Shown here one piece after another: positions 4,005 to 60,720 of a stretch of 64,000 nucleotides of DNA. The stretch covers positions 198,588 through 262,587 of the forward strand of contig NZ_SJPQ01000002.1 of assembly GCF_007859945.1 (NCBI RefSeq). The letters are read 5' to 3'. The notes under the pieces were generated by a model. That model was not told the origin of the DNA, searched no databases, and saw only the letters and a program-made list of their open reading frames with translations. The position numbers and the translations under genes are program-made. Numbering within the stretch: position 1 is the first letter of the stretch; each line of letters starts with the position of its first letter. The DNA comes from Pseudobythopirellula maris (GTDB lineage Bacteria > Planctomycetota > Planctomycetia > Pirellulales > Lacipirellulaceae).

Positions 4005-4173
4005 CCCCCTGTAGGGACCGCCCTCTGTGGCGGTCCGAACTTACCCCCTGTAGGGACCGCCCTCTGCGGCGGTCCGAACCCCGGCAGATAAGCTGGCCCT
4101 TGCCAGGAAAACTCTTTCCGATGGGCAAGCCGGTACCCGGGGCGGGAACGCCACAGAGGGCGTTCCCTACAGG
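4005..4173 (+). repeat. Two direct and one inverted copy of a CCTGTAGGGA repeat
   Basis: Copies at 4005-4040 and 4044-4079 share 35 of 36 bases (core CCCTGTAGGGACCGCCCTCT). A third, inverted copy lies at 4144-4173 (RC core CCTGTAGGGAACGCCCTCTG), with AA replacing CC in both half-sites so that its own short stem is kept. Each copy is partly palindromic. The module fills the spacer between the convergent DUF6428 and methyltransferase-like genes, and its right edge touches the stop codon at 4174. Confidence 0.85.
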
Positions 4174-15677: not shown

Positions 15678-15950
15678 GGTCGTTGCCCTGGGACCGCCAG
15701 CACGCTTCGAGAGCCTGCGGCGGCCGCAATGATGAAGGGTTTCGTGGGTGGGCCTGGGATCGGGGGTTGCCGAACCGTGGCTGGGGAAAGGGTGGGGGCG
15801 CTGCGGGGCTGTGTGGCCGAAGCCACTTCGCCCAGCCCACGCTGGCGTGGTCGCGCGAAGCCTGCACTTTACTGGGTTCCCCCTACGGGGGATAGGGGTT
15901 TGGCAGCCAAAGCGGCCGGTCAATGTATCGATTTCCCGCGTCGAGCAACA

Positions 15951-16040
15951 GGCGAGCCGGAGGGCGTAAGCCCCCGGAGGGGGAGCCTGGGGGAGCCTAG
16001 TACCCGGCCCACCCCGGGGGCTTACGCCCCGCGGCTCGCC
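15951..16040 (+). repeat. Inverted-repeat pair, GGCGAGCC family, in the fusA/CAAX-protease divergent spacer
   Basis: Arms 15951-15977 (GGCGAGCCGGAGGGCGTAAG start) and 16014-16040 are inverted copies matching in 25 of 27 positions. This is the same family as 7542-7633 and 22348-22453. The remaining spacer (15678-15950 and 16041-16231) has no gene I can support and should contain the two divergent promoters. Confidence 0.85.
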
Positions 16041-16231
16041 TTTTTGTGCTCGCTAGGCCGGAATCGGTCGCCCCAGGCGGCAAACGATGGCGCCGACGGC
16101 TTGTCTGGCGAAATGGCTCTGCCCTCCTGGGCCGAGGCGGCGGTTTGGGTGGCGTTTGTGCTTCGGATCGCGTAAACCTTTTGTTCTCTTGGGTTTCCGC
16201 CGCTTCTTGTCCCTCTAGTCCGCTCCCCCAC

Positions 16232-30411: not shown

Positions 30412-30500
30412 TCCCGCCCTTCGTTTGATTGGCGGCGGGCGATCCGCACCGAGTCGGTGTGGACCCCGACCCGCGAAGCCAGCCCCTCAATCCACGCAAG

Positions 30501-30554
30501 ACCAAGCCCCCATGACCCACTAGTGGGTCGTGGGGGCTTGGTCATTGGTCATTC
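30501..30554 (+). repeat. Palindromic copy of the AATGACCAAGCCCC repeat, no gene inside
   Basis: ACCAAGCCCCCATGACCCAC at 30501-30520 and its inverted match GTGGGTCGTGGGGGCTTGGT at 30523-30542 form a near-perfect 20-bp stem. The right side continues CATTGGTCATTC, as in the copies at 40597 and 42310. The stop codon (TGA) of the esterase-like gene, at 30549-30551, is formed by this repeat. It belongs to the same family as the inverted repeats that bound the cassette at 40168-40623. Confidence 0.8.
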
Positions 30555-31565
30555 CCGAGGGGCGACCACACCCCGCGCCGCGAGCCAAGCCTCGAGCGCC
30601 GCGGGCCACAGGGCCGTCGAGCCGGCGGTGCTCCACATGCCGAATCCGTGGCCCCCCTTCTCGTAAGCGTGCAGCTCGGCCGCCACCCCGTGCTCCTTGA
30701 GCGCGGCGAACATCCGCAGGCTGTTCTCGATCGGCACGGCGCGGTCGTCGGCCGCGTGGATCAGAAGCGTGGGCGGCGTGTCGCTCGTCACACGATTCTC
30801 GGCCGACAAGGCGTGCGAGAGCGCTTCGCTCGGCTCGTCACCGAGCAAGTTCTTGCGTGATCCGCCGTGGGTGACCGCCACCTCCATCGAGACGACCGGG
30901 TAGACCAGCACCGCGAAGTCGGGCCAGCTGGAGTGGCGCTCCAGCGGGTCGTCGGCCTCGGGCGCGGCGGGAGAGCCTTGCGTGGCGGCGGTGGCGGCCA
31001 AGTGGCCGCCGGCCGAGAAGCCCATGATCCCCACCGCGTCGGGGCGCACGCCCCACTCCTGGGCGTGGCTGCGGACCAGCCGGATCGCCCGGCGGGCGTC
31101 GCTCAGCGGCACGGGGTGCTTCTGGCTCTCGCCGCCGCAACGGTATTTAACAACGACGCCGACCGCGCCGCGGTCGGCGAGCCACTTCGCCACGAAGTGC
31201 CCCTCTTTGTCGAGCGCCAACCCGCCGTATCCGCCGCCGGGCAACACGCAGACCGCCGCCCCGGTCGCCGTGGCGGGATCGGGGCGATAGACCGTCATGG
31301 TCGGCTCCGACACGCCGGTAACCCAGCGGTTCCTCCGCCCGGCATGGCTCCGGTCCTCGGCGTTTTCCGACTGCTCGTGCCGCTCGGACTCGGGGGCGCC
31401 CCCCTCCCACAGCGGCAGCTCAAGGGCGTCTCTCGAGCCTGCCTTGCCGGAGGCATTGGCCTGGTCGGGGGCGACGGCTTGCGAACCGGCGGGGGGTTGG
31501 GCGGGGGAGGTCATGGGCAATGCGAATGAGAGCAGCATCCAAGCGGTGAAAGCGAGTCGGCGCAT
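30549..31565 (-). CDS. Secreted alpha/beta hydrolase, sugar-esterase-like
   Basis: 338 residues. Signal peptide (MRRLAFTAWMLLSFALPMTS). The catalytic domain starts at about 88 (TMTVYRPDPATATGAAVCVL, then PGGGYGGLALDKEGHFVAKW, the oxyanion loop). Nucleophile Ser is in GIMGFSAGGHLAATAA, Asp in LIHAADDRAVPIENS, and His in GGHGFGMW. This arrangement is seen in planctomycete carbohydrate esterase/acetylxylan-esterase-like proteins that remove acyl groups from sugars. The substrate is inferred. Its stop codon lies inside a palindromic repeat that also ends the convergent small basic gene's spacer. Confidence 0.85.
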   Translation of the reverse strand: MRRLAFTAWMLLSFALPMTSPAQPPAGSQAVAPDQANASGKAGSRDALELPLWEGGAPESERHEQSENAEDRSHAGRRNRWVTGVSEPTMTVYRPDPATATGAAVCVLPGGGYGGLALDKEGHFVAKWLADRGAVGVVVKYRCGGESQKHPVPLSDARRAIRLVRSHAQEWGVRPDAVGIMGFSAGGHLAATAATQGSPAAPEADDPLERHSSWPDFAVLVYPVVSMEVAVTHGGSRKNLLGDEPSEALSHALSAENRVTSDTPPTLLIHAADDRAVPIENSLRMFAALKEHGVAAELHAYEKGGHGFGMWSTAGSTALWPAALEAWLAARGVVAPRE

Positions 31566-35471: not shown

Positions 35472-38400
35472 ATGTTCAACCGCCGTTCGCTCATCCACCT
35501 GCCGGAGAAGCAGGGCCTGTACGATCCCGCCCTGGAGCACGACGCCTGCGGCGTCGGCTTCATCGCGCACATCAAGGGCGAGGCGAGCCACCAGATCGTG
35601 GTCGACTCGGAGGACCTGCTCAAGCGCATGGACCACCGCGGCGCTTGCGGGTGCGAAGAGAACACGGGCGACGGCTCGGGCATCATGACCGCCCTGCCGC
35701 ACGCGTTCCTGCAGGCGGCCGTGAAGGCCGACCTGGGGATCGACCTGCCCGAGCCGGGCCGGTTCGCCGCGGGCAACGTATTCCTGCCCCGCATCAAGAG
35801 CGAGCGCGAGAAGTGCAAGGCCGAGGTCGAGCGCATCGTGGCCGAGCAGGGGCAGCGGCTGGTGGGCTGGCGCCCGGTGCCGACCAACTCGAAGAAGGCC
35901 GACATCGGCCCCACGGCCCGCGCCTCGGAGCCGGTGATCGAGCAGCTGGTGATCGCCGCGTCTGACAACGTCGAAGGCGAGGCCTTCGAGCGCCAGGTCT
36001 ACCTCATCCGCAAGCGGGCGAGCAACCTGCTGCGATCCGACGGATCGCTCAAAGAAGCCAAGATCTTCTACATCTGCTCGCTCTCGACCAAGGTGATCAT
36101 CTACAAGGGCATGCTCACCACCGAGCAGCTCTACCGCTACTACAAGGACCTGAAAGACCCGGCCTACGTCAGCCACCTGGCGATGGTCCACTCGCGGTTC
36201 GCCACGAACACGTTCCCCAGCTGGGACCGCGCGCAGCCGCTGCGCTTCATGAGCCACAACGGCGAGATCAACACCGTCAAGGGCAACGCGAACTGGATGT
36301 TCGCCCGCCAGGGGGTCCTGCAGAGCCCGCCGGGCGGCGGATTCGGCGACGAGCTGCCGAAGCTCTTCCCGATCGTCGAGCCCGACTGCAGCGACTCCGG
36401 CACGTTCGACAACGCGCTGGAGTTCCTGCTGATGAACGGCCGCTCGCTGCAGGGCTCGGTCATGATGATGGTCCCCGAGGCGTGGCAGAACCACGCCACG
36501 ATGTCCGAGTCGAAGCGCGCCTTCTACGAGTACCACTCGGCGCTGATGGAGCCGTGGGACGGCCCCGCGTCGATCGTCTTCACCGACGGCAAGTACATCG
36601 GCGCGGTCTTGGACCGCAACGGCCTGCGGCCCTCGCGGTACTACGTGACGAACGACGACCGGGTGATCATGGGCAGCGAGGTCGGCGTGGTCGACGTCGA
36701 GCCGGAGAACGTGCGTCTGAAGGGCCGCCTCCAGCCGGGCAAGATGTTCCTGGTCGACTTCGACGAGGGCCGCCTGATCCCGGACGAAGAGATCAAGGAA
36801 GGTTTCGCCTCGCGCCAGCCGTACGGCGATTGGCTTCGCGCCGAGCGGATCGACCTGAACGACCTCCACCCCGAGGAGGAGAAGCACGGCTTCCGGGCCA
36901 GCACGCTGATGGCCCGCATGCAGGCGTTCGGCTTCACGGTCGAGACGCTCAAGTTCATGCTGCTGCCGCTCATCCAAGTCGAGAAAGACCCGATCGGCTC
37001 GATGGGCAACGACAGCTGCCTGGCGGTCCTCAGCGACAAGCCGCGGATGATCTACGACTACTTCAAGCAGCTGTTCGCCCAGGTGACGAACCCCGCGATC
37101 GACTCGATCCGCGAGGAAGTCATCATGTCGCTCGAGTGCTACATCGGCCCCGAGCAGAACCTGCTCGAAACCACCCCCGAGCACGCCCACCGGCTCCGGC
37201 TGGCGCACCCGATCTTGTCGAACGAGCAGCTCGCCTCGCTCAAGCACATCTACCGCAACAAGGCCGGCAAGGGCTGGCGGGCGAAGACGATCGACATCAC
37301 TTGGCCGGTCGAGGAGGGGGCCGCAGGCATGCGCGGCGCCATCGACCGCGTTTGCCAAGAGGCCGAGGCCGCCATCGACGAGGGGTACGCCCTCGTGATC
37401 CTGTCGGACCGCAAGCTGTCGGCCGAGCGCGTGCCGCTCAGCGCGTTGCTGGCCACCGGCGCCGTGCACCACCACTTGGTGCGTTGCTCGAAGCGGACCC
37501 GCATCGGCCTGATCGTCGAGACCGGCGAGGCCCGCGAGGTGCACCACCACTGCCTGCTGGTCGGCTACGGCGCCGACGCGATCAACCCCTACCTGGCGTT
37601 CGAGTCGCTCTGGCAGGCGCGGCGTGACGGCTTGATCCCCGACGACGACGAGGGCGTGGTGCCGCACGAGGAGTCGGGCGAGGCCGAGGACCCGCTCTCC
37701 GTGCCCGAGGACGACGAGGCCCACGACCCGATCACGGGCATGGACCACCAGATCGTCGCGAAGTACCGCACCGGCGTGGCCAAGGGCATGCTCAAGGTGA
37801 TGGCCAAGATGGGCATCTCGACACTGCAGAGCTACAAGGGCGCCCAGATCTTCGAGGCCCTCGGCCTGCGCGACGAGGTCATCGACCTCTGCTTCAGCGG
37901 CACCGCCAGCCGCGTGCAGGGCGCAGGGTTTGACGTGCTCGCCGAGGAAGCCCTGCGGCGTCACAAGCTCGGCTACCCCGCGCACGAGTCGTCCCGGCTG
38001 CCACTGCTGCCCAACCCGGGCGAGTACCACTGGCGCGCCGAGGGCGAGCGCCACATGTGGACCCCGCTGGCGATCTCCGAGATCCAGGCCGCCGCCCGAG
38101 GCGGCGACAAAACCGCCTACCAGCGGTTCGCCGACCTGGTGAACCACGACGCCCGCAACCGCTGCCAGCTGCGTGGCCTGCTCGGGTTCAAGAAAGAAGC
38201 CAACGGCGGCGCGATCCCGATCGACGAGGTCATGCCCGCCAGCGAGATCGTCAAGCGATTCTGCACCGGGGCGATGTCGTTCGGCTCGATCTCGGCCGAG
38301 TCGCACGAGACGCTCGCCATCGCGATGAACCGCCTCGGCGGCAAGAGCAACACCGGCGAGGGGGGTGAGGACCCGGCGCGCTGGACCCCCGACGACAACG

Positions 38401-40163
38401 GCGACTCGCGCCGCTCGGCCATCAAGCAGGTCGCCTCCGGCCGGTTCGGCGTGACGATCAGCTACCTGAGCAACGCCGACGAGATCCAAATCAAGATCTC
38501 CCAAGGCGCCAAGCCGGGCGAAGGTGGCGAGCTGCCCGGTCGCAAGGTCGACGACACGATCGCCCGGATCCGTTACTCAACGCCCGGCGTCGGCCTCATC
38601 AGCCCCCCGCCGCATCACGACATCTACTCGATCGAAGACCTCGCCCAGCTGATCTACGACCTGAAGAACGCCAATCGGGCCGCCCGGATCAGTGTGAAGC
38701 TGGTCTCGGAGGTCGGCGTCGGCACGGTCGCCTCGGGCGTCGTCAAAGGCCACGCCGACCACGTGCTGATCGCCGGCGACGGCGGCGGCACCGGCGCCTC
38801 GCCGCTCACCAGCATCAAGCACGCCGGCCTGCCGTGGGAGCTCGGCATCGCCGAGACCCACCAGACGCTGATGATGAACGACCTCCGCAGCCGTGTGATC
38901 CTGCAGACCGACGGCGGCCTGAAGACCGGTCGCGACGTCGTGATCGCCGCGCTCTTGGGCGCCGAGGAGTTCGGCTTCAGCACCGCGCCGCTCATCACGC
39001 TCGGCTGCATCATGATGCGCAAGTGCCACCTGAACACCTGCCCCGTGGGCATCGCCACCCAAGACCCCGAACTGCGGGCCAAGTTCTCCGGCAAGCCGGA
39101 GCACGTGGTGAACTACCTGTTCATGGTCGCCGAGGACGCCCGCCAGCTGATGGCCGAGCTCGGCTTCCGCACGATCGACGAGATGGTCGGCCGCGTCGAC
39201 GCGCTCGACACGAACAAGGCGATCAAGCACTGGAAGACGGACGGCCTGGACCTGACCAAGCTGCTCTCTCCCGGCCCGCGGCCATACCCCGAGGCGGGCG
39301 CCCATTGCACGATGGGCCAAGACCACGGGCTCGAGAAGACTCTCGACCTCCGCGAGCTACTCGAGCAGGCCCAGCCGGCCATCGACTCGGGCAAGAAGGT
39401 CCGCTACGAGACCCGCATCGTCAACACCGACCGCACGGTCGGCACGATCACGTCGAACGAGATCGCCAAGAAGCACGGCGAGGCGGGCCTGCCGGACGAC
39501 ACGATCCGGTTCCGGCTCACCGGCCACGCCGGCCAGAGCCTCGGCGCCTTCCTGGCCCACGGCGTGACGATCGAACTCGAAGGCGACGCGAACGACTACG
39601 TCGGCAAGGGCCTGTCGGGCGGCCGCGTGATCGTTTACCCGCCGAAGGCCTCGACCTTCAAGGCCGAAGAGCAGATCCTCGTCGGCAACGTCTGCCTGTA
39701 CGGCGCCACCCGCGGCGAGGCGTTCCTACGCGGACGCGCCGCCGAGCGGTTCTGCGTTCGCAACAGCGGCGCCCACGCCGTGGTGGAGGGCGTTGGCGAC
39801 CACGGCTGCGAGTACATGACCGGCGGCCGCGCGGTGATCCTCGGCCCCACCGGCCGCAACTTCGCGGCCGGCATGTCGGGCGGCGTGGCGTATGTCCACG
39901 CCCCGGACCGCGACGCCTTCCGCCTGAGCTGCAACCTCGGCATGGTCGAGCTCGAAGACGTGACCGAAGCCGACGACGTCGCCGAACTCAAAGAGCTCAT
40001 CGAGAAGCACCAGAACGCGACCGACAGCGCGGTGGCGGCTGAGCTCTTGGACCGCTGGGACGACGCCCTCGGCGAGTTCGTCAAGGTGATGCCAACCGAT
40101 TACAAACGCGTGCTGGAGGAGCAGAAGGCGAAAGGCAAGGCAGAACAACCGGCGGCGGTTTAA
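35472..40163 (+). CDS. gltB: Glutamate synthase large subunit
   Basis: 1563 residues, normal length. Ferredoxin- or NADPH-type GOGAT large chain. After a propeptide-like segment the glutaminase Cys nucleophile is C26 in LEHDACGVGFIAHI. The class II amidotransferase domain follows (MVHSRFATNTFPSWDRAQPL). The FMN synthase domain carries GAKPGEGGELPGRKV, and the [3Fe-4S] cysteines are in CIMMRKCHLNTCPVGIATQD (about residue 1180). The C-terminal domain is the Gly-rich beta-helix (GKGLSGGRVIVYPPKAS). It makes two glutamate from glutamine and 2-oxoglutarate together with GltD. The stop is 4 bp before an inverted-repeat cassette that separates it from gltD. Confidence 0.96.
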   Translation: MFNRRSLIHLPEKQGLYDPALEHDACGVGFIAHIKGEASHQIVVDSEDLLKRMDHRGACGCEENTGDGSGIMTALPHAFLQAAVKADLGIDLPEPGRFAAGNVFLPRIKSEREKCKAEVERIVAEQGQRLVGWRPVPTNSKKADIGPTARASEPVIEQLVIAASDNVEGEAFERQVYLIRKRASNLLRSDGSLKEAKIFYICSLSTKVIIYKGMLTTEQLYRYYKDLKDPAYVSHLAMVHSRFATNTFPSWDRAQPLRFMSHNGEINTVKGNANWMFARQGVLQSPPGGGFGDELPKLFPIVEPDCSDSGTFDNALEFLLMNGRSLQGSVMMMVPEAWQNHATMSESKRAFYEYHSALMEPWDGPASIVFTDGKYIGAVLDRNGLRPSRYYVTNDDRVIMGSEVGVVDVEPENVRLKGRLQPGKMFLVDFDEGRLIPDEEIKEGFASRQPYGDWLRAERIDLNDLHPEEEKHGFRASTLMARMQAFGFTVETLKFMLLPLIQVEKDPIGSMGNDSCLAVLSDKPRMIYDYFKQLFAQVTNPAIDSIREEVIMSLECYIGPEQNLLETTPEHAHRLRLAHPILSNEQLASLKHIYRNKAGKGWRAKTIDITWPVEEGAAGMRGAIDRVCQEAEAAIDEGYALVILSDRKLSAERVPLSALLATGAVHHHLVRCSKRTRIGLIVETGEAREVHHHCLLVGYGADAINPYLAFESLWQARRDGLIPDDDEGVVPHEESGEAEDPLSVPEDDEAHDPITGMDHQIVAKYRTGVAKGMLKVMAKMGISTLQSYKGAQIFEALGLRDEVIDLCFSGTASRVQGAGFDVLAEEALRRHKLGYPAHESSRLPLLPNPGEYHWRAEGERHMWTPLAISEIQAAARGGDKTAYQRFADLVNHDARNRCQLRGLLGFKKEANGGAIPIDEVMPASEIVKRFCTGAMSFGSISAESHETLAIAMNRLGGKSNTGEGGEDPARWTPDDNGDSRRSAIKQVASGRFGVTISYLSNADEIQIKISQGAKPGEGGELPGRKVDDTIARIRYSTPGVGLISPPPHHDIYSIEDLAQLIYDLKNANRAARISVKLVSEVGVGTVASGVVKGHADHVLIAGDGGGTGASPLTSIKHAGLPWELGIAETHQTLMMNDLRSRVILQTDGGLKTGRDVVIAALLGAEEFGFSTAPLITLGCIMMRKCHLNTCPVGIATQDPELRAKFSGKPEHVVNYLFMVAEDARQLMAELGFRTIDEMVGRVDALDTNKAIKHWKTDGLDLTKLLSPGPRPYPEAGAHCTMGQDHGLEKTLDLRELLEQAQPAIDSGKKVRYETRIVNTDRTVGTITSNEIAKKHGEAGLPDDTIRFRLTGHAGQSLGAFLAHGVTIELEGDANDYVGKGLSGGRVIVYPPKASTFKAEEQILVGNVCLYGATRGEAFLRGRAAERFCVRNSGAHAVVEGVGDHGCEYMTGGRAVILGPTGRNFAAGMSGGVAYVHAPDRDAFRLSCNLGMVELEDVTEADDVAELKELIEKHQNATDSAVAAELLDRWDDALGEFVKVMPTDYKRVLEEQKAKGKAEQPAAV

Positions 40164-40167
40164 AGGA

Positions 40168-40623
40168 CCAATGACCAAGCCCCAATGACCAATGATGGTT
40201 GACATCGATTGTCCACCGGAGGGCCGGCAATTTGATCTGGCGGAGCGGACGGCTTGCTTCGGCGAGTCGGTCATCCGCTTTGTGAGATTGGTAAGCCGGG
40301 ACGACGTCAGCGGTCCACTGATCCGACAACTCGTGCGGTCGGCCACGAGCATCGGAGCTAACTACCTCGAAGCAGACGAGGCCGGAACGAATAAGGAATT
40401 TCGCTATAGGATAAGCGTCTGTAGCCGCGAGGCCCGCGAGACTCAACACTGGCTGAGAATGCTGGCCACGGCGTGCCCCGACCACCGCGCCGTCGCCCGC
40501 GATCACTGGCAAGAAGCCAAGGAACTAACCCTGATTTTCGGATCTATCCACAGGAAGTCAAAACCGACGCCCAAGTGAACAACGTTCGCATCACGACATT
40601 GGTCATTGGGGCTTGGTCATTGG
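40168..40623 (+). mobile_element. 456-bp inverted-repeat cassette carrying a four-helix-bundle gene
   Basis: Perfect 27-bp inverted arms: 40168-40194 (begins CCAATGACCAAGCCCCAATG) and 40597-40623. The only gene inside starts with the last three bases of the left arm (ATG at 40192-40194), and its stop lies 18 bp before the right arm. Arms of the same sequence form a gene-less element at 42263-42332 and a palindrome at 30501-30554. The cassette is inserted between gltB and gltD, a pair normally adjacent. No transposase and no clear target-site duplication are seen. Confidence 0.7.
40192..40578 (+). CDS. Four-helix-bundle protein (23S rRNA intervening-sequence protein type)
   Basis: 128 residues. 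FDLAERTACFGESVIRFVRL, VSGPLIRQLVRSATSIGANY, LEADEAGTNKEFRYRISVCS and REARETQHWLRMLATACPDH match the four-helix-bundle family first seen as proteins encoded in intervening sequences of 23S rRNA (also resembling Avd of diversity-generating retroelements). Key residues Ser-Ile-x-Ala-Asn-Tyr and the KEF-RIS-ARE block are present. The biochemical function is unknown; basic surfaces suggest nucleic-acid binding. There is no 23S gene here: the gene sits in an inverted-repeat cassette within glt. ATG at 40192 or 40195, both at the inner edge of the repeat. Confidence 0.85.
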   Translation: MMVDIDCPPEGRQFDLAERTACFGESVIRFVRLVSRDDVSGPLIRQLVRSATSIGANYLEADEAGTNKEFRYRISVCSREARETQHWLRMLATACPDHRAVARDHWQEAKELTLIFGSIHRKSKPTPK

Positions 40624-40677
40624 TCATTCGATCCATTTGCTAATTCAACTTTCAGAAATAGGCTAGTACGGTCCACG

Positions 40678-42252
40678 ATGGGAAAACCCACCGGTTTTAA
40701 AGAGTTCCCCCGCAACGCGGTCCCCTACCGCGACCCGCTCGAGCGCGCTGCGGACTACCTCGAGATCTACACCCACGCCCCCGAGGAGCAGCTCACCACG
40801 CAGGGCGCGCGGTGCATGGACTGCGGCGTGCCGTTCTGCCAGTCGGACTCCGGCTGCCCGATCGACAACCTCATCCCCGAGTGGAATGATCTGGTCTACA
40901 ACGGCCGCTGGCGCGACGCGCTCGACCGGCTGCACAAGACGAACAACTTCCCCGAGTTCACCGGCCGGGCCTGCCCCGCGCCGTGCGAGGGGGCCTGCGT
41001 GCTGGGCATCACCGACCCGCCGGTGACGATCAAGAACATCGAGAACGCGATCATCGACCGCGGCTGGGACGAGGGCTGGGTCGCCCCGCAGCCCCCCAGC
41101 TACGAGACCGGCAAGAGCGTCGCGATCGTCGGCTCCGGCCCCGCCGGGCTGTCGGCCGCCCAGCAGCTCCGCCGCGCCGGGCACGCCGTGAAGGTTTACG
41201 AACGCGCCGACCGCATTGGCGGCCTGTGCATGTACGGCATCCCCAACATGAAGCTCGACAAGGGGACGGTCGAACGCCGCGTCGAGCAGCTCCGCGCCGA
41301 GGGCGTCGAGTTCCACACCGGCGTCCACGTCGGCAAGGAGGAAGACTTCGCCCCGGGCCACATGACCGCCATCATGCGTGAGCGCGGCGTGAAGGTGAAA
41401 TTCCTCGACCCCAACAAGTTGCTCAAAGAGAAAGACGCGGTGCTGATGGCCACCGGCGCCACAAAACCGTTCGACCCCACCGGCCGCTGCCCGGGTCGCG
41501 ACCTGAAGGGCATCCATCTGGCGATGGACTTCCTCACCCGCAACACGAAGAGCCTGCTGGACTCGGAGCTCTCGGACAAGGAGTTCCTCTCGGCCGAGGG
41601 GCTCGACGTGGTGGTGATCGGCGGCGGCGACACCGGCGCCGACTGCATCGGCACGTCGCTAAGGCACGGCGCGAAGAGCATCGTGAACTTCGAGCTGATG
41701 GACCAGGCGCCCCCCGAACGGGCGCCCAACAACCCTTGGCCGCAGTGGCCGCGGGTCTACCGCGTCGACTACTCGCACGCCGAGGTCGAGGCCAAGACCG
41801 GCAAGGACCCCCGCGCGTACCACATCCTCACCAAGGAGTACGTGGGCAAAGAGGGCCGCGTCACCGGCGTGAAGACCGTCGAAGTTGACTGGGCGCAGCC
41901 CGTCGCCGGCGGGGCCCCGTTCACCGAGGTGCCCGGCAGCGAGAAGGTGTGGCCCGCCGATTTGGTGCTGCTGTCGACCGGCTTCGTCGGCCCCGAACTC
42001 ACCGTCGGCGAGATGCTCGGCGTCGAGACCCAGCAACCGCGCGGAAATTGGGTCACTTTTTCGGGCAAGCACGGCGAGTTCACGACGAATGTCGAGAAGG
42101 TGTTCGCCGCCGGCGACTGCCGACGCGGCCAGAGCCTCGTCGTCTGGGCCATCAACGAAGGCCGCGGCGCGGCCCGTTCGATCGACGAGTACCTGATGGG
42201 CGCCAGCAGCCTGCCGGCGCCCGGCACCAACCTGCCGCAACAGGTGGTCTGA
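40678..42252 (+). CDS. gltD: Glutamate synthase small subunit
   Basis: 524 residues from the ATG at 40678 ([20 protein letters not shown]). The N-terminal Fe-S region has [20 protein letters not shown] and [13 protein letters not shown], carrying two [4Fe-4S] clusters. The FAD motif is [20 protein letters not shown] (about 145-164) and the NADPH site is [18 protein letters not shown]. The C-terminal FAD contact is [20 protein letters not shown]. It feeds electrons from NADPH to GltB. It is separated from gltB by the 456-bp cassette, so an operon would have to read through those inverted repeats or use a promoter at about 40625-40677. Confidence 0.96.
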
Positions 42253-42262
42253 CGCTAAAATC

Positions 42263-42332
42263 CCAATGACCAAGCCCCAATGACCATTGGGTTTTGCACA
42301 AACCTTATCGGTCATTGGGGCTTGGTCATTGG
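42263..42332 (+). repeat. Gene-less inverted-repeat element of the AATGACCAAGCCCC family
   Basis: Arms 42263-42285 and 42310-42332 are perfect 23-bp inverted repeats with a 24-bp spacer. The sequence is the same as the arms of the cassette at 40168-40623. It lies 10 bp after the gltD stop, and would form a strong hairpin in the glt transcript. Confidence 0.87.
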
Positions 42333-42382
42333 TCATTCGCCACTGCCAGTAGCTCATTTAGCAAAGCGACACCGGAGCCCCC

Positions 42383-43204
42383 ATGGACGACCTCTTCACG
42401 CTCCACAACCTCTTCACCCTCGGCATGCTGATCTTGCTGCAGGCGGTGCTGGGGTTCGACAACCTGCTCTACATCTCGATTGAGTCGAAGCGGGCTCCCG
42501 ACGAGAACCAGCGCGCCGTGCGCCAGTGGGGCATCGGCATCGCCATCGTGCTGCGGATCGTGCTGCTGTTCGTCGTGATCCGCGTGATCGGCATGTTCCA
42601 GGAGCCCTTCCTGACGATCCCCGAAGGGGGCCCGATCGGCTGGGCCCTTTCGGGCGACATCACCCTGCACGCGGTCATCGTGCTGCTGGGCGGCGTGTTC
42701 ATCCTCTACACCGCCGTCAAAGAGATCATGCACATGATGGCGATCGAGGACGTCGCCCACGGCGTGGGCGACAACAACCGCTCGAGCACCTGGATGGTCG
42801 TCTCGAAGATCGTCGCGATGAACCTGGTGTTCTCGTTCGACTCGATCCTCTCGGCGATGGCGCTCACCGACAACTTCTGGGTCATGGCCACGGCGATCGT
42901 CATCAGCGGCGCCATGATGATCTGGCTCGCCGAGCACGTCTCGGAGTTCCTCAAGAAGAACCGCCTGTACGAGGTCCTCGGGCTGTTCATCCTGTTCATC
43001 GTCGGCGTGATGCTCATCGGCGAGGGGGGCCACTTGGCCCACCTCCACCTGTTCGGCTACATCGTCGAGCCGATGGCTAAGAGCACGTTCTACTTCACGA
43101 TCGCCATCCTGGTAGTGATCGACATCGTGCAGGGCCGCTACCAGAAGAAGCTGATGGCCGAGAAGCACCGCGAGATCGTTGAAAACGACGCGACGACGGC
43201 CTAG
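42383..43204 (+). CDS. TerC/Alx-family integral membrane protein
   Basis: 273 residues with about seven membrane helices. The metal-handling Asp motifs of the family are GFDNLLYISIESK (near residue 25) and NLVFSFDSILSAMAL (near 150). The linker MHMMAIEDVAHGVGDNN is hydrophilic. TerC/Alx proteins export or handle manganese and work with the translocon at the inner membrane. The GTG/ATG choice is clear, MDDLFTLHNLFTLGMLILLQ. It is followed by a convergent small membrane-protein gene. Confidence 0.92.
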   Translation: MDDLFTLHNLFTLGMLILLQAVLGFDNLLYISIESKRAPDENQRAVRQWGIGIAIVLRIVLLFVVIRVIGMFQEPFLTIPEGGPIGWALSGDITLHAVIVLLGGVFILYTAVKEIMHMMAIEDVAHGVGDNNRSSTWMVVSKIVAMNLVFSFDSILSAMALTDNFWVMATAIVISGAMMIWLAEHVSEFLKKNRLYEVLGLFILFIVGVMLIGEGGHLAHLHLFGYIVEPMAKSTFYFTIAILVVIDIVQGRYQKKLMAEKHREIVENDATTA

Positions 43205-43237
43205 CATCGAAGGGCGCCAGGGGCTTCCGCTGTGTGC

Positions 43238-43306
43238 CACTGGCGTGCCGCCAGTGAGATGTACCAGGTGAGCTCGTACCCAATTCGCACTGGCGGCACG
43301 CCAGTG
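43238..43306 (+). repeat. Perfect inverted-repeat pair CACTGGCGTGCCGCCAGTG
   Basis: Arms 43238-43256 and 43288-43306 are 19-bp perfect inverted copies; each arm is itself a near-palindrome (CACTGGCG-GCCAGTG). It lies between the convergent TerC and small membrane-protein genes, 33 bp past the terC stop. Confidence 0.85.
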
Positions 43307-43381
43307 TCGCCGGGCGCTATGGCCGAGGGCATCGCCAAAGTGCTCGGAGACGGGAACCCACGGCCGTCAGCTGCTGCATCA

Positions 43382-57165: not shown

Positions 57166-57255
57166 GTAGCCGCCGACTTGCAGTCGGCGGTTTTTCTTTG
57201 CGCGGAGGTTGATTACGCTCGTGGCGCCTTCCGCCGACTGTAAGTCGGCGGCTAC
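57166..57255 (+). repeat. Inverted-repeat pair of GCCGACTTGCAGTCGGC palindromes, first arm terminator-like
   Basis: Arms 57166-57190 and 57231-57255 are inverted copies with 24 of 25 matches; each is also a palindrome (CCGCCGACTTGCAGTCGGCGG). The first is followed by TTTTTCTTT (57191-57199) and can end transcription from the SPOR-like gene. The second lies just before rdgB (start 57286). Confidence 0.85.
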
Positions 57256-57285: not shown

Positions 57286-57900
57286 ATGACCTCTCCGACT
57301 CTGGTGATCGGTTCGCACAACGCCAAGAAGGGGCGCGAGCTCGCGGAGCTCGTGGCGCCGTATGGCCTCACGGCCAAGACGCTCGCCGATTTCCCCGACG
57401 CCCCCGAGCCCGTGGAAGACGGCGACACGTTCGAGGCGAACGCCCGCATCAAGGCCACGGAGCAGGCGCGGGCGCTCGGCCAATGGGTGATCGCCGACGA
57501 CAGCGGCATCTGCGTCGACGCCCTCGGGGGCGAGCCTGGGATCTACTCGGCGCGCTTCGCGGCGATGGCCGATGCGGGCGAGGGAGACGAGGCCAACAAC
57601 ACGCTGCTGCTCAGCAAGCTCGATGGCCTGCCGCCCGCCAAGCGCGGCGCCCACTACGTGGCCGTCGTTGCGCTGGCCGACCCCACGGGCGAAGTGCGAG
57701 CCGAGACCCGCGGCGAGTGCCACGGCCGCATCACGACCGAGCGCCGCGGCGCGAACGGCTTCGGTTACGACCCGCTGTTCGAACTGCGCGAGTACCACCG
57801 CACGTTTGGCGAGCTGGGCCCCGAAGTCAAGCGCGCCCTGAGCCACCGCTCACGGGCGATGCGCCAGATGCTGCCGCGACTGGTGGCGCTGCTGAAGTAG
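57286..57900 (+). CDS. rdgB: RdgB/HAM1 non-canonical purine NTP pyrophosphatase
   Basis: 204 residues. The substrate motif GSHNAKKGRELAEL is at about 6-19. The catalytic acidic set is EDGDTFEANARIKA and VIADDSGICVDALGGEPGIY then SARFA. The C-terminal GFGYDPLFELREYHRTFGEL and SHRSRAMRQ blocks complete the family. It cleaves dITP, XTP and ITP to monophosphates and pyrophosphate, cleaning the nucleotide pool. Start MTSPTLVIGSHNAKK. The stop codon is followed immediately by the left arm of a 33-bp inverted-repeat cassette. Confidence 0.95.
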   Translation: MTSPTLVIGSHNAKKGRELAELVAPYGLTAKTLADFPDAPEPVEDGDTFEANARIKATEQARALGQWVIADDSGICVDALGGEPGIYSARFAAMADAGEGDEANNTLLLSKLDGLPPAKRGAHYVAVVALADPTGEVRAETRGECHGRITTERRGANGFGYDPLFELREYHRTFGELGPEVKRALSHRSRAMRQMLPRLVALLK

Positions 57901-58213
57901 GAACCACAGATGAACACAGATAGACACCGATGAAAAGTGGCGTCTATGAGTTAGCCGAATGGTGTGACTTCTCCTGTTGCGTCGTTGATGTGCAATACCC
58001 ACGGACCGTCGAGTACTGGACGGGCGCCTTCTCCCCCAATGACCTCGCCCAAGTCATACACGATGCTCCATGACCCAATTCCTTGAAGTCCATCGCACCA
58101 CCGTACAGAGAGCGGCTCAACGCTACGACTTGTCGTCTTTAGCACATAGCGATTTGCAGCGATGATGGCGTCTACTTCTTTCATCGGTGTCTATCTGTGT
58201 TCATCTGTGGTTC
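57901..58213 (-). mobile_element. 313-bp cassette with perfect 33-bp inverted ends carrying one small gene
   Basis: Arms 57901-57933 (begins GAACCACAGATGAACACAGA) and 58181-58213 are exact 33-bp inverted copies. The single minus-strand gene has its ATG at 58184-58182, the second to fourth innermost bases of the right arm, and its stop lies 17 bp before the left arm. The cassette occupies the whole space between the rdgB stop (57900) and the oppC stop (58215). The architecture is the same as the cassette at 40168-40623, but the arm sequence and the gene are unrelated. Confidence 0.7.
57951..58184 (-). CDS. Small protein inside an inverted-repeat cassette, possibly YrhB/immunity-like
   Basis: 77 residues. 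MKEVDAIIAANRYVLKTTSR, then VEPLSVRWCDGLQGIGSWSI, VYDLGEVIGGEGARPVLDGP and WVLHINDATGEVTPFG. The pattern of a single alpha helix followed by strands ending in 'h-h-I-DA-TGEV' recalls small YrhB/Imm35-type proteins, some of which are immunity proteins or chaperones. This comparison is weak and only from pattern memory. No toxin gene is near. Its start codon is provided by the repeat arm. Codon use is less GC-rich than neighbours, consistent with outside origin. Confidence 0.6.
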   Translation of the reverse strand: MKEVDAIIAANRYVLKTTSRSVEPLSVRWCDGLQGIGSWSIVYDLGEVIGGEGARPVLDGPWVLHINDATGEVTPFG

Positions 58214-58214
58214 T

Positions 58215-59450
58215 TCAACGATCTCGCAGCTTCGGATCGAACGCGTCGCGCAGCCCGTCGCCCAGGAAGTTGAGCGCGAAGAGCGTCACGCCGATCGCCA
58301 GGCTGGGGAACACGATCAGCCACCAGTAGACCTTCACGGGCGTGATGACCTGGATCCCTTCATTCGCCAGCAGGCCCCACGACACGTCGGGCGGCTCAAC
58401 GCCCAGGCCCAAGAACGACAGGAACGCTTCGAAAAGGATCACCCGGGGGATCGTGAGCGTGAGGTACACGATCACCACGCTCAAGAGGTTCGGCACGATG
58501 TGGCGGAACAGTATCACCCGGTGCGACGCCCCGACGGCCCGGGCCGCCTCGACGAACGGCTCGTTCTTGAGCGAGAGGACCTGGCCCCGCACCACGCGGG
58601 CCATCGTGAGCCAGTAGATGGCGCCCACCACAAAGTAGAAGATCGTGATCCGGTCGACGCCGTAGCTCTCGAGCACGTCTTTGATGTCGTCTTGCCCCAA
58701 CACCGTGATCAGGAAGATCACGACGAAGATAAACGGCACGCTGTAGAGCACGTCGACCGCACGCATCATCGCGTCGTCGACCCAGCCGCCGGCGTAGCCG
58801 GAGATCGCGCCGTAGGTGACGCCGATCACGAGCGACACCAGCGTGGCGACGACGCCGACGATCAGCGACACCCGGGCGCCCCAGAAGATGCGGCTCAGCA
58901 CGTCGCGGCCCAGCTTGTCGCGGCCGCAGATCGAGGCGAGCGACCATTTCCCCAGCACCGTGTAGCGCATCCGCACCATCGCCCGGCTGAGCGGGTCGAG
59001 CCGCGGGAAGCCGGCGTTCGTGTAGGGCCGCTGCACGAGCCCGGCCACGGTCGCCTTGGCGAGCCGCACCGTGCGACGCCCTTCGGCGAGCGCTTCCTCG
59101 TCCGCCTCGTTGTTTGACTCGCTGTTTGACTCTAGCGTGGCGAGCGCCGTGCGGGCTTCGGCCAAGTCCTCCCGGGCGGCGGGCAAACGCTCGGCGGAGG
59201 TCTCGATGTCGGCCGGGTCGAAGTCGAACGACGGCTCGAAGAGCGGCCAGACGGTGGGCGGATCGAACTGACGCTTGGTGTCGATCGCGTCGGAGGGCTG
59301 CAGCGGCAGCACCGGCGTGAGGAACGCCAACACCGCCACCGCGACGAGCGTCCACAGCGACGCCATCGCCGGCCCGCTCCGCCGCAACCGGCGCCAGGCG
59401 TCTTGCGTGAGCGAAACGCCGTGTGTTTGGTTCGAGGGGTACTGGGTCAT
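58215..59450 (-). CDS. oppC: Oligopeptide ABC transporter permease (OppC/DppC)
   Basis: 411 residues, longer than usual (about 300) because of a charged insert after the first helix (about residues 60-150, SNSESNNEADEEALAEGRR). Typical binding-protein-dependent permease part: GTDxLGRDxxSR-like CGRDKLGRDVLSRIFWGARV, five further helices and the EAA loop VEAARAVGASHRVILFRHIV. It is an inner-membrane partner of OppB. It is third in the oppA-oppB-oppC order. The stop codon is 1 bp from an inverted-repeat cassette. OppD/OppF ATPase genes are absent from the window and must be elsewhere. Confidence 0.93.
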   Translation of the reverse strand: MTQYPSNQTHGVSLTQDAWRRLRRSGPAMASLWTLVAVAVLAFLTPVLPLQPSDAIDTKRQFDPPTVWPLFEPSFDFDPADIETSAERLPAAREDLAEARTALATLESNSESNNEADEEALAEGRRTVRLAKATVAGLVQRPYTNAGFPRLDPLSRAMVRMRYTVLGKWSLASICGRDKLGRDVLSRIFWGARVSLIVGVVATLVSLVIGVTYGAISGYAGGWVDDAMMRAVDVLYSVPFIFVVIFLITVLGQDDIKDVLESYGVDRITIFYFVVGAIYWLTMARVVRGQVLSLKNEPFVEAARAVGASHRVILFRHIVPNLLSVVIVYLTLTIPRVILFEAFLSFLGLGVEPPDVSWGLLANEGIQVITPVKVYWWLIVFPSLAIGVTLFALNFLGDGLRDAFDPKLRDR

Positions 59451-60510: not shown

Positions 60511-60720
60511 TATCCCCCTCCCCTGAAAGGGGAGGGGCTAGGGGAGGGGTTAAAGGTCTCGATCGCAAAGAAACCTACCTGTGGGGGCGATTACTCGGTT
60601 CCTGTTTTAAGAACAGCATCTTGTGTTGGGTTATCAAGGGCGTTGCGAGTACTCGCTTCAACCCCCTCCCCCCGTTGCATCAGTGAATTGGCCTCCCCCT
60701 GCCGGGGAGGGGGATTCTTA
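60511..60720 (+). repeat. CCCCTCCCC-type repeats, one running into the oppA reading frame
   Basis: TCCCCCTCCCCTGAAAGGGG then AGGGGCTAGGGGAGGGGTT at 60511-60551, and CCCCCTCCCCCCGTTGCATC then GGCCTCCCCCTGCCGGGGAG at about 60661-60716. The two parts are related G/C-run palindromes. The second part encodes the last residues of oppA. Confidence 0.8.

Follow-up and report, generated by a model that had tools for sequence, protein, structure and literature searches.

Besides the intervening sequence (IVS) of the Coxiella 23S rRNA gene, which carries an open reading frame (ORF), gene-less 23S IVSs exist in other bacteria. According to excerpts of the Coxiella report (PMC4990558), IVSs replace tetraloops of 23S helices, and the Coxiella element comprises a 28-bp inverted stem with tandem heptamers ahead of the S23 ORF, differs by strain in its number of heptamers and is excised by RNase III in vitro. 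In the same excerpts, the authors cite an older proposal in which the IVS ORF served mobility, and they think that the IVS protein is not made. What is already known is thus the 23S IVS with an ORF of the family discussed here; the wider finding described below is the heptad build of the cassettes that carry such genes, together with their placement at stop codons.

The window analysed here is a stretch of 64,000 nucleotides of Pseudobythopirellula maris (contig NZ_SJPQ01000002.1, positions 198,588 to 262,587), in which a gene-carrying cassette (40163–40628) lies between two forward-strand genes that we take to be gltB-like (35472–40163) and gltD-like (40678–42252). The left arm of the cassette (40163–40194, forward strand) starts on the final base of the gltB stop codon and is 97% complementary, over 32 nt, to the right arm (40597–40628, reverse strand). 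The forward-strand gene at 40192–40578 encodes a 128-aa four-helix bundle protein that exceeds the profile cut-offs of both TIGR02436 (54.8 bits, cut-off 24) and PF05635 (39.5 bits, cut-off 33.8) and belongs to the latter, the ‘23S rRNA-intervening sequence protein’ (IVP) family. It is the only protein recognised in the cassette, where profile searches recognised no nuclease, recombinase or reverse transcriptase. Over 117 codons shared with its counterpart in the relative G018, codon positions 1–2 are 82.5% and position 3 is 32.5% identical, values that indicate purifying selection on the gene. Five PF05635 genes were found in the P. maris genome (G000; 5.07 Mb, 6 contigs, 96.5% complete), all of them between inverted arms and each cassette with a different 7-bp arm unit, as read by eye.

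Behind gltD, whose stop codon (42252) lies ten bases ahead, a gene-less hairpin is formed by a left arm at 42263–42285 (forward strand; 7-bp units AATGACC, AAGCCCC and AATGACC), a 24-nt loop (42286–42309) and a right arm at 42310–42337 (reverse strand), which pairs up to 42332 and whose outer unit continues to 42337; the two 23-bp stretches are perfect complements, and no ORF lies between these terminal inverted repeats. A second gene-less palindrome of the same arm family, with a very short loop, occupies 30498–30554 (paired over 30498–30545, the outer unit extending to 30554), and a reverse-strand ORF (30549–31565) has its stop codon inside the arm. RNA folding gave −52.2 kcal/mol for 42259–42337 (z −10.7) and −45.4 kcal/mol for 30491–30556 (z −7.8), while the 14-mer AATGACCAAGCCCC, with up to two mismatches, occurred at 6 sites in the window against a mean of 0.30 and a largest value of 2 in 100 shuffles. 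Arm comparison, shuffles and fold bear out the perfect 23-bp pair with 24 bp between that an earlier note on this DNA had described, and the palindrome that it had placed at 30501–30554 is real, with the limits just given. The same note had counted three of four arm pairs at stop codons; we found three pairs in the window, not four, and all three touch or closely trail a stop codon. A reading of these hairpins as intrinsic terminators was dropped since no T run follows the stem at hairpins of this family within 40100–42500, where a terminator scan returned two terminator-like sites (shuffles, mean 2.3), neither of them at an AATGACC-family hairpin. The window also holds a palindrome at 57899–58215, with arms of ~35–40 bp (ACCACAGATGAACACAGATAG...) in units of ~10 nt by eye around 237 bp, which looks like another family of like general build, as well as inverted pairs outside the AATGACC family at 60512–60715, 43234–43310, 15950–16041, 57166–57255 and 4008–4173.

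The cassette resembles the 23S IVSs in carrying a same-family ORF between inverted repeats, and the Coxiella IVS, in the excerpts cited above, shares the tandem heptamers. It differs in that the IVP cassettes described here stand between protein genes, at or behind stops (the elements of the window lie between gltB and gltD and behind gltD, not inside a 23S rRNA gene), have dispersed gene-less copies and carry an element-specific arm unit. From the viewpoint of these cassettes, 23S rRNA intervening sequences look like members of the IVP hairpin elements that reside in rRNA. MITEs likewise consist of short gene-less inverted-repeat copies whose ends recur in a relative with a gene, here the cassette at 40163–40628, and presence or absence varies among relatives as well (at nine G018 sites for gene-less copies, in plasmids for gene carriers). 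However, the arms are tandem 7-mers, target duplication is inconsistent and the term in its strict sense does not apply, because it calls for a transposase encoded by the relative that carries the gene, and none is recognised in the cassette. The earlier proposal of a MITE-like, internally deleted derivative was right in outline, regarding common ends and dispersal, but narrow.

Heptanucleotide repeats are also familiar from cyanobacteria, as STRRs. Like the arms, STRRs and the TAACTGA repeats of Beggiatoaceae (PMC4679880, partial text) consist of 7-nt tandem units that are mostly intergenic; unlike the arms, the TAACTGA repeats are described in that partial text as direct repeats, with one inverted set, and with no link to an IVP gene, the terms ‘S23’ and ‘helix bundle’ being absent from the main text of the paper. 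REP/REPIN sequences and their RAYT genes share with our elements the dispersed palindromes, some close behind stops, and the gene-carrying relative, whereas the gene here encodes a four-helix protein instead of a Y1 transposase and the arms are built of heptads; in excerpts of PMC12306157, only 446 of 4,072 predicted E. coli REPs lie within 15 nt of a stop. A likeness to Avd of diversity-generating retroelements comes from L026, another IVP of the P. maris genome, which matches the solved structures 2gsc and 2rld in sequence but scores only 21.2 bits against the Avd model (E 0.00028), a weak match below the cut-off of 80. Titles and abstract openings among the matches listed contained no prior report of heptad inverted arms around IVP genes, which is weak evidence of novelty as subscription journals fell mostly outside the scope of that search.

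The build of the cassette is general. We examined 155 IVP genes, namely 75 from P. maris (5) and its relatives (70, mainly the best-scoring among the matches listed) and 80 from many phyla (the best 80 of at least 571 confirmed relatives, chosen by similarity to nine planctomycete sequences). The contig titles of these 80 name cyanobacteria, proteobacteria, Bacteroidetes, Selenomonadales, Clostridia, Chloroflexi, Spirochaetes, Acidobacteria, Verrucomicrobia and other groups. Most of the 155 genes are flanked by inverted arms built from 7-bp units, which vary among cassettes. When periods 4–13 were compared in the best 28-nt window, period 7 was the single best in 64/75 upstream and 68/75 downstream flanks of the first set, against 5/73 and 2/74 control flanks farther from the genes, and in 66/80 (one flank too short) and 67/80 flanks of the best 80 of at least 571, against 8/80 control flanks (6 too short to score). 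Inverted pairing across the gene reached a median score of 17 in the 75-gene set, compared with 8 for mismatched flanks, and exceeded 99% of the mismatched-pair control at 43/75 loci and at 43 of the best 80 of at least 571, although two genomes represented twice (L089/L181, L107/L210) and the presence of orthologous sites make all these counts less independent than they look. A minority of cassettes showed period 8 or 9, the same on both sides at L216, L240, L246, L247 and L255 of the 80-locus set. Strict mirror order of the units beyond the matched stretch was rejected (0.298 in the same register, 0.325 shifted by 7 and 0.269 shifted by 2–4), in a test with a built-in bias, since mismatches set the limits of the chosen stretch. 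As separate observations, G outnumbered C on the coding strand in the left arm of 120 of the 126 IVP cassettes compared, with 6 the reverse and the window family C-rich there, and the IVP proteins of L180, L191 and L226 were 87–90% identical on contigs titled Anaerolineaceae, Spirochaetaceae and Fibrobacter, which points either to recent cross-phylum transfer or to mis-binned contigs.

We propose, with a probability of about 0.64, that a small mobile IVP hairpin element is represented at 42263–42332 by a gene-less, non-autonomous copy. Genome comparison shows that arms and gene co-occur, that the arms track the protein, that elements are present or absent at one site among relatives and that they are placed at stop codons or a short distance behind them. 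The exact 14-mer occurs at 24 sites in the P. maris genome (0 for the reversed control), which hold about 16 two-armed gene-less hairpins (in L048 the order of the arms is reversed) and a single gene carrier; the one-armed or degenerate sites L004, L034, L052 and L053 were excluded from later counts. As anticipated from the window, the carrier has its ends in common with the gene-less copies, which are dispersed through the genome; the relative G018 contains 33 gene-less two-armed hairpins. Beside these 49 gene-less hairpins, 47 gene 3′ ends were callable, by a simple composition rule rather than a gene finder, at a median distance of 10 nt; 24 of the 47 lay at 5–12 nt and 32 at up to 20 nt, including six overlaps. 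Where tandem genes flank a gene-less hairpin, its position leans towards the stop (KS p 0.002 for the 18 usable pairs out of 33). Around gene carriers, of which 89 in 155 could be used, 60/93 gene 3′ ends and 65/85 5′ ends fell within −10 to 25 nt of an arm, the 5′ ends being unreliable since each was set at the earliest start codon, and a test of their position between stop and start was not significant (n = 17, p 0.14). Among the 98 of 155 cassettes with both neighbours callable, 80 are co-directional with both, 1 is opposed to both and 17 are mixed, so that 80 of 81 tandem contexts are co-directional, with the nrd-site cassette, antisense to both neighbours, as a named exception; orthologous sites inflate these placement and orientation counts. 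Sense orientation and stop placement fit an RNA step, and they also fit selection among random insertions, since a promoterless gene needs read-through and a hairpin is least harmful between stop and start.

The position 5–12 nt behind stops could also be that of host regulatory hairpins kept there for 3′-end protection, slowed terminating ribosomes or operon uncoupling, with IVP as an RNA-binding regulator. Ribosome stalling has been reported for E. coli REPs that lie no more than 15 nt from a stop (excerpts of PMC12306157), and the strong stems without terminator tails, the purifying selection on IVP and the persistence of many cassettes at orthologous sites would all suit such a role, which we nevertheless consider rather unlikely, because a site whose occupant varies among nothing, an IVP cassette, a GxxExxY cassette and other palindromes, and closely related plasmids that are full or empty, behave poorly for conserved regulation. 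Many IVP cassettes do occupy orthologous sites over large distances, so that either movement is rare or cassettes are retained. The gltB–gltD spacer itself illustrates the range of occupants. Across 40 family genomes a gltD match was found in 38, with 30 loci among the matches listed and 28 spacers parsed; nine of these are 47–109 bp long, four contain an IVP cassette or what we read as its remains (G000 and G018, degraded in G006, a possible remnant in G002), and ten hold a cassette with an ORF read as GxxExxY, an identity confirmed by profile for the G005 copy (TIGR04256, PDDEXK_3). An IVP gene adjoins gltD also in G001 and G033, the G033 copy being split across two frames, and in the 130 bp 3′ of gltD, examined at 25 loci, the AATGACC hairpin is present in G000 only. 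The arms of the GxxExxY cassettes have a period of 8 (best in 9/10 left and 10/10 right ends), which replaces a first impression of 9 nt. These GxxExxY (PDDEXK_3) cassettes share the build of IVP cassettes, including gene-less versions at the same site (L149 and others).

Presence and absence were also seen at gene-less sites. At nine G018 hairpin sites the AATGACC hairpin is absent from G005 (nine two-sided matches, L334 aligned poorly) and from the seven counterparts matched in G024, neither genome containing the exact AATGACC-type or AATGACG-type word, and some of the counterparts carry other palindromes; likewise, two AATGACG cassettes of G014 are absent at the orthologous G027 sites, where other palindromes stand. 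At one of these G027 sites, L423 (G027:C1, about 1984100–1984390), three palindromes of different families are nested within one another between two genes. For gene carriers, one IVP query protein matched 36 of 72,556 plasmid records (16 Nostoc, 4 Calothrix, 2 Trichormus, 2 Aulosira and others) and 0 of 50,697 phage records, and five sites occur in both full and empty states in related Nostocales plasmids. One such pair lies within a single strain, Nostoc C052 (pC052_D vs pC052_B, a 417 bp insert by alignment), and a 506 bp insert separates pNsp_c of Nostoc ATCC 53789 from pC052_B of C052. The traM site is occupied in C052 and N. edaphicum but not in C057; two Calothrix NIES-22 plasmids carry an insert at the integrase site, which Tolypothrix PCC 7601, Aulosira NIES-50 and N. 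carneum lack; and at the nrd site N. edaphicum has the insert while Calothrix NIES-4105 is empty. At these three sites the automatic alignment split the insert, and the junctions were read from sequence. All five inserts lie at a stop codon or within about ten bases of one (for the integrase site this stop is at the arm, the final codons being different). An apparent target repeat of 6 bp was seen at one plasmid site, with small changes or no clear repeat at the other gene carriers. The earlier note had held that repeats confined to the neighbourhood of these genes, and never varying, would speak against mobility; copies are instead dispersed and vary between genomes. The full and empty sites that it had suggested seeking in sister strains do show variation, in other genera and cyanobacterial plasmids only.

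Arm and protein belong together to a measurable degree. Arm and protein similarity were correlated across 126 of the 155 loci (Mantel r 0.254, matched by 0 of 1000 permutations), after 29 loci with no arm pair scoring 13 or with short flanks had been dropped, two genomes represented twice adding to this r. Within the subfamily of the window IVP, proteins of at least 59% identity come with AATGACC arms (G018, G001, G021 and G033; arms unrecovered in G025 and G006), those of 47–55% with AATGACG arms (seven loci) and those of 27–43% with other units or no clear arms. The word AATGACCAATGACC (AATGACC) was counted 25, 41, 4, 5, 3, 9 and 12 times in the seven genomes with a cognate gene, against a median of 0 in the other 33 of the 40 family genomes (14 above 0, up to 46; p 0.0009), and AATGACGAATGACGAA (AATGACG) 54, 14, 13, 85, 43 and 5 times in six cognate-gene genomes, against a median of 0 in the other 34 (16 above 0, up to 41; p 0.0003); these counts take in the cassettes’ own arms and one-sided arrays, and the 40 genomes are related and several are incomplete. 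Long one-sided AATGACG tandem arrays were seen at L397 (G028:C15:321839–321917) and L399 (G019:C3:6642–6692), as if one arm had expanded through slippage.

This matching of arm sequence and copy number to the cognate IVP argues against a passenger role for the protein, in which it would be cargo on palindromes that owe their movement to an unrelated enzyme, such as a RAYT-like transposase of the Y1/IS200 type that works on hairpins in single-stranded DNA. Palindromic ends with gene-less relatives do resemble REP/RAYT systems, and an IS200-like ORF lies in the gltB–gltD spacer of G016 (profile match), with a similar one in G017 (by reading). Copies also persist where no cognate IVP gene was detected, with AATGACC words numbering 46 in G011, 21 in G010, 16 in G020 and 13 in G004, and AATGACG words 41 in G031, 37 in G020 and 33 in G027; these many-copy genomes are the main evidence against a strict dependence on the cognate IVP. 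Even so, we regard movement by an unrelated enzyme as improbable.

As for the origin of gene-less copies of the IVP element, G000 and G018 have arms in common and loops not. A mini-hairpin with a GTGC or GGAGC stem and a short tip recurs in 14 of 33 G018 loops and in 0 of 16 G000 loops (shuffled G018 loops, mean 0.09, maximum 1), which fits gene-less copies spreading as units, and several G018 loops contain a second heptad unit. Gene loss in place, read from sequence, has occurred elsewhere, in the heptad cassette of Nostoc pNsp_c, whose traM site has similar units arranged as a palindrome but no gene annotated there, and at the gltB–gltD site in the GxxExxY cassettes of G062 and G060, gene-less, and of G032, cut-down; these are precedents for the earlier idea of deleted carriers. 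That every gene-less copy is a former carrier which lost its gene independently, as those precedents at relatives’ full sites might suggest, is quite unlikely given 16 gene-less copies to 1 carrier in G000, 33 to 1 in G018 and the loop motif. Two G018 hairpins (L338, L343) appear to lie inside the loop of another palindrome, and loop targeting was therefore tested on the 49 hairpins; as a rule it was rejected, with a mean flank complementarity of 6.86 compared with 6.97 for mismatched flanks and 1 of 49 hairpins above the 99% control level.

In the mechanism that we envisage, the full element consists of an IVP gene between two inverted arms of tandem 7-bp units. The host operon would supply transcription, the RNA arms would pair, and the IVP protein may recognise the heptad arms of its own element, whether in folded RNA or in single-stranded DNA, acting in trans on gene-less copies as well, with a host factor perhaps serving as the cutting and joining enzyme. 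The hairpin would be tolerated because of its location, either after one stop codon and before the next start or in 23S rRNA loops that are dispensable, from which RNase III would remove it. More broadly, and only tentatively, with more doubt than confidence, IVP hairpin elements might form a phylum-spanning mobile class whose target is set at the RNA level (operon stop codon, 23S loop) and in which a non-nuclease protein pairs with its own 7-nt arm code and spreads gene-less copies through host machinery, worn arms making up much of the bacterial heptanucleotide load.

These findings connect the rRNA intervening sequences, whose protein is not known to have a function, with abundant intergenic 7-nt repeats and with palindromes dispersed behind stops. 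They predict that each IVP protein pairs with the heptad of its own arms, and the full and empty plasmid pairs of Nostoc and relatives are ready experimental material.
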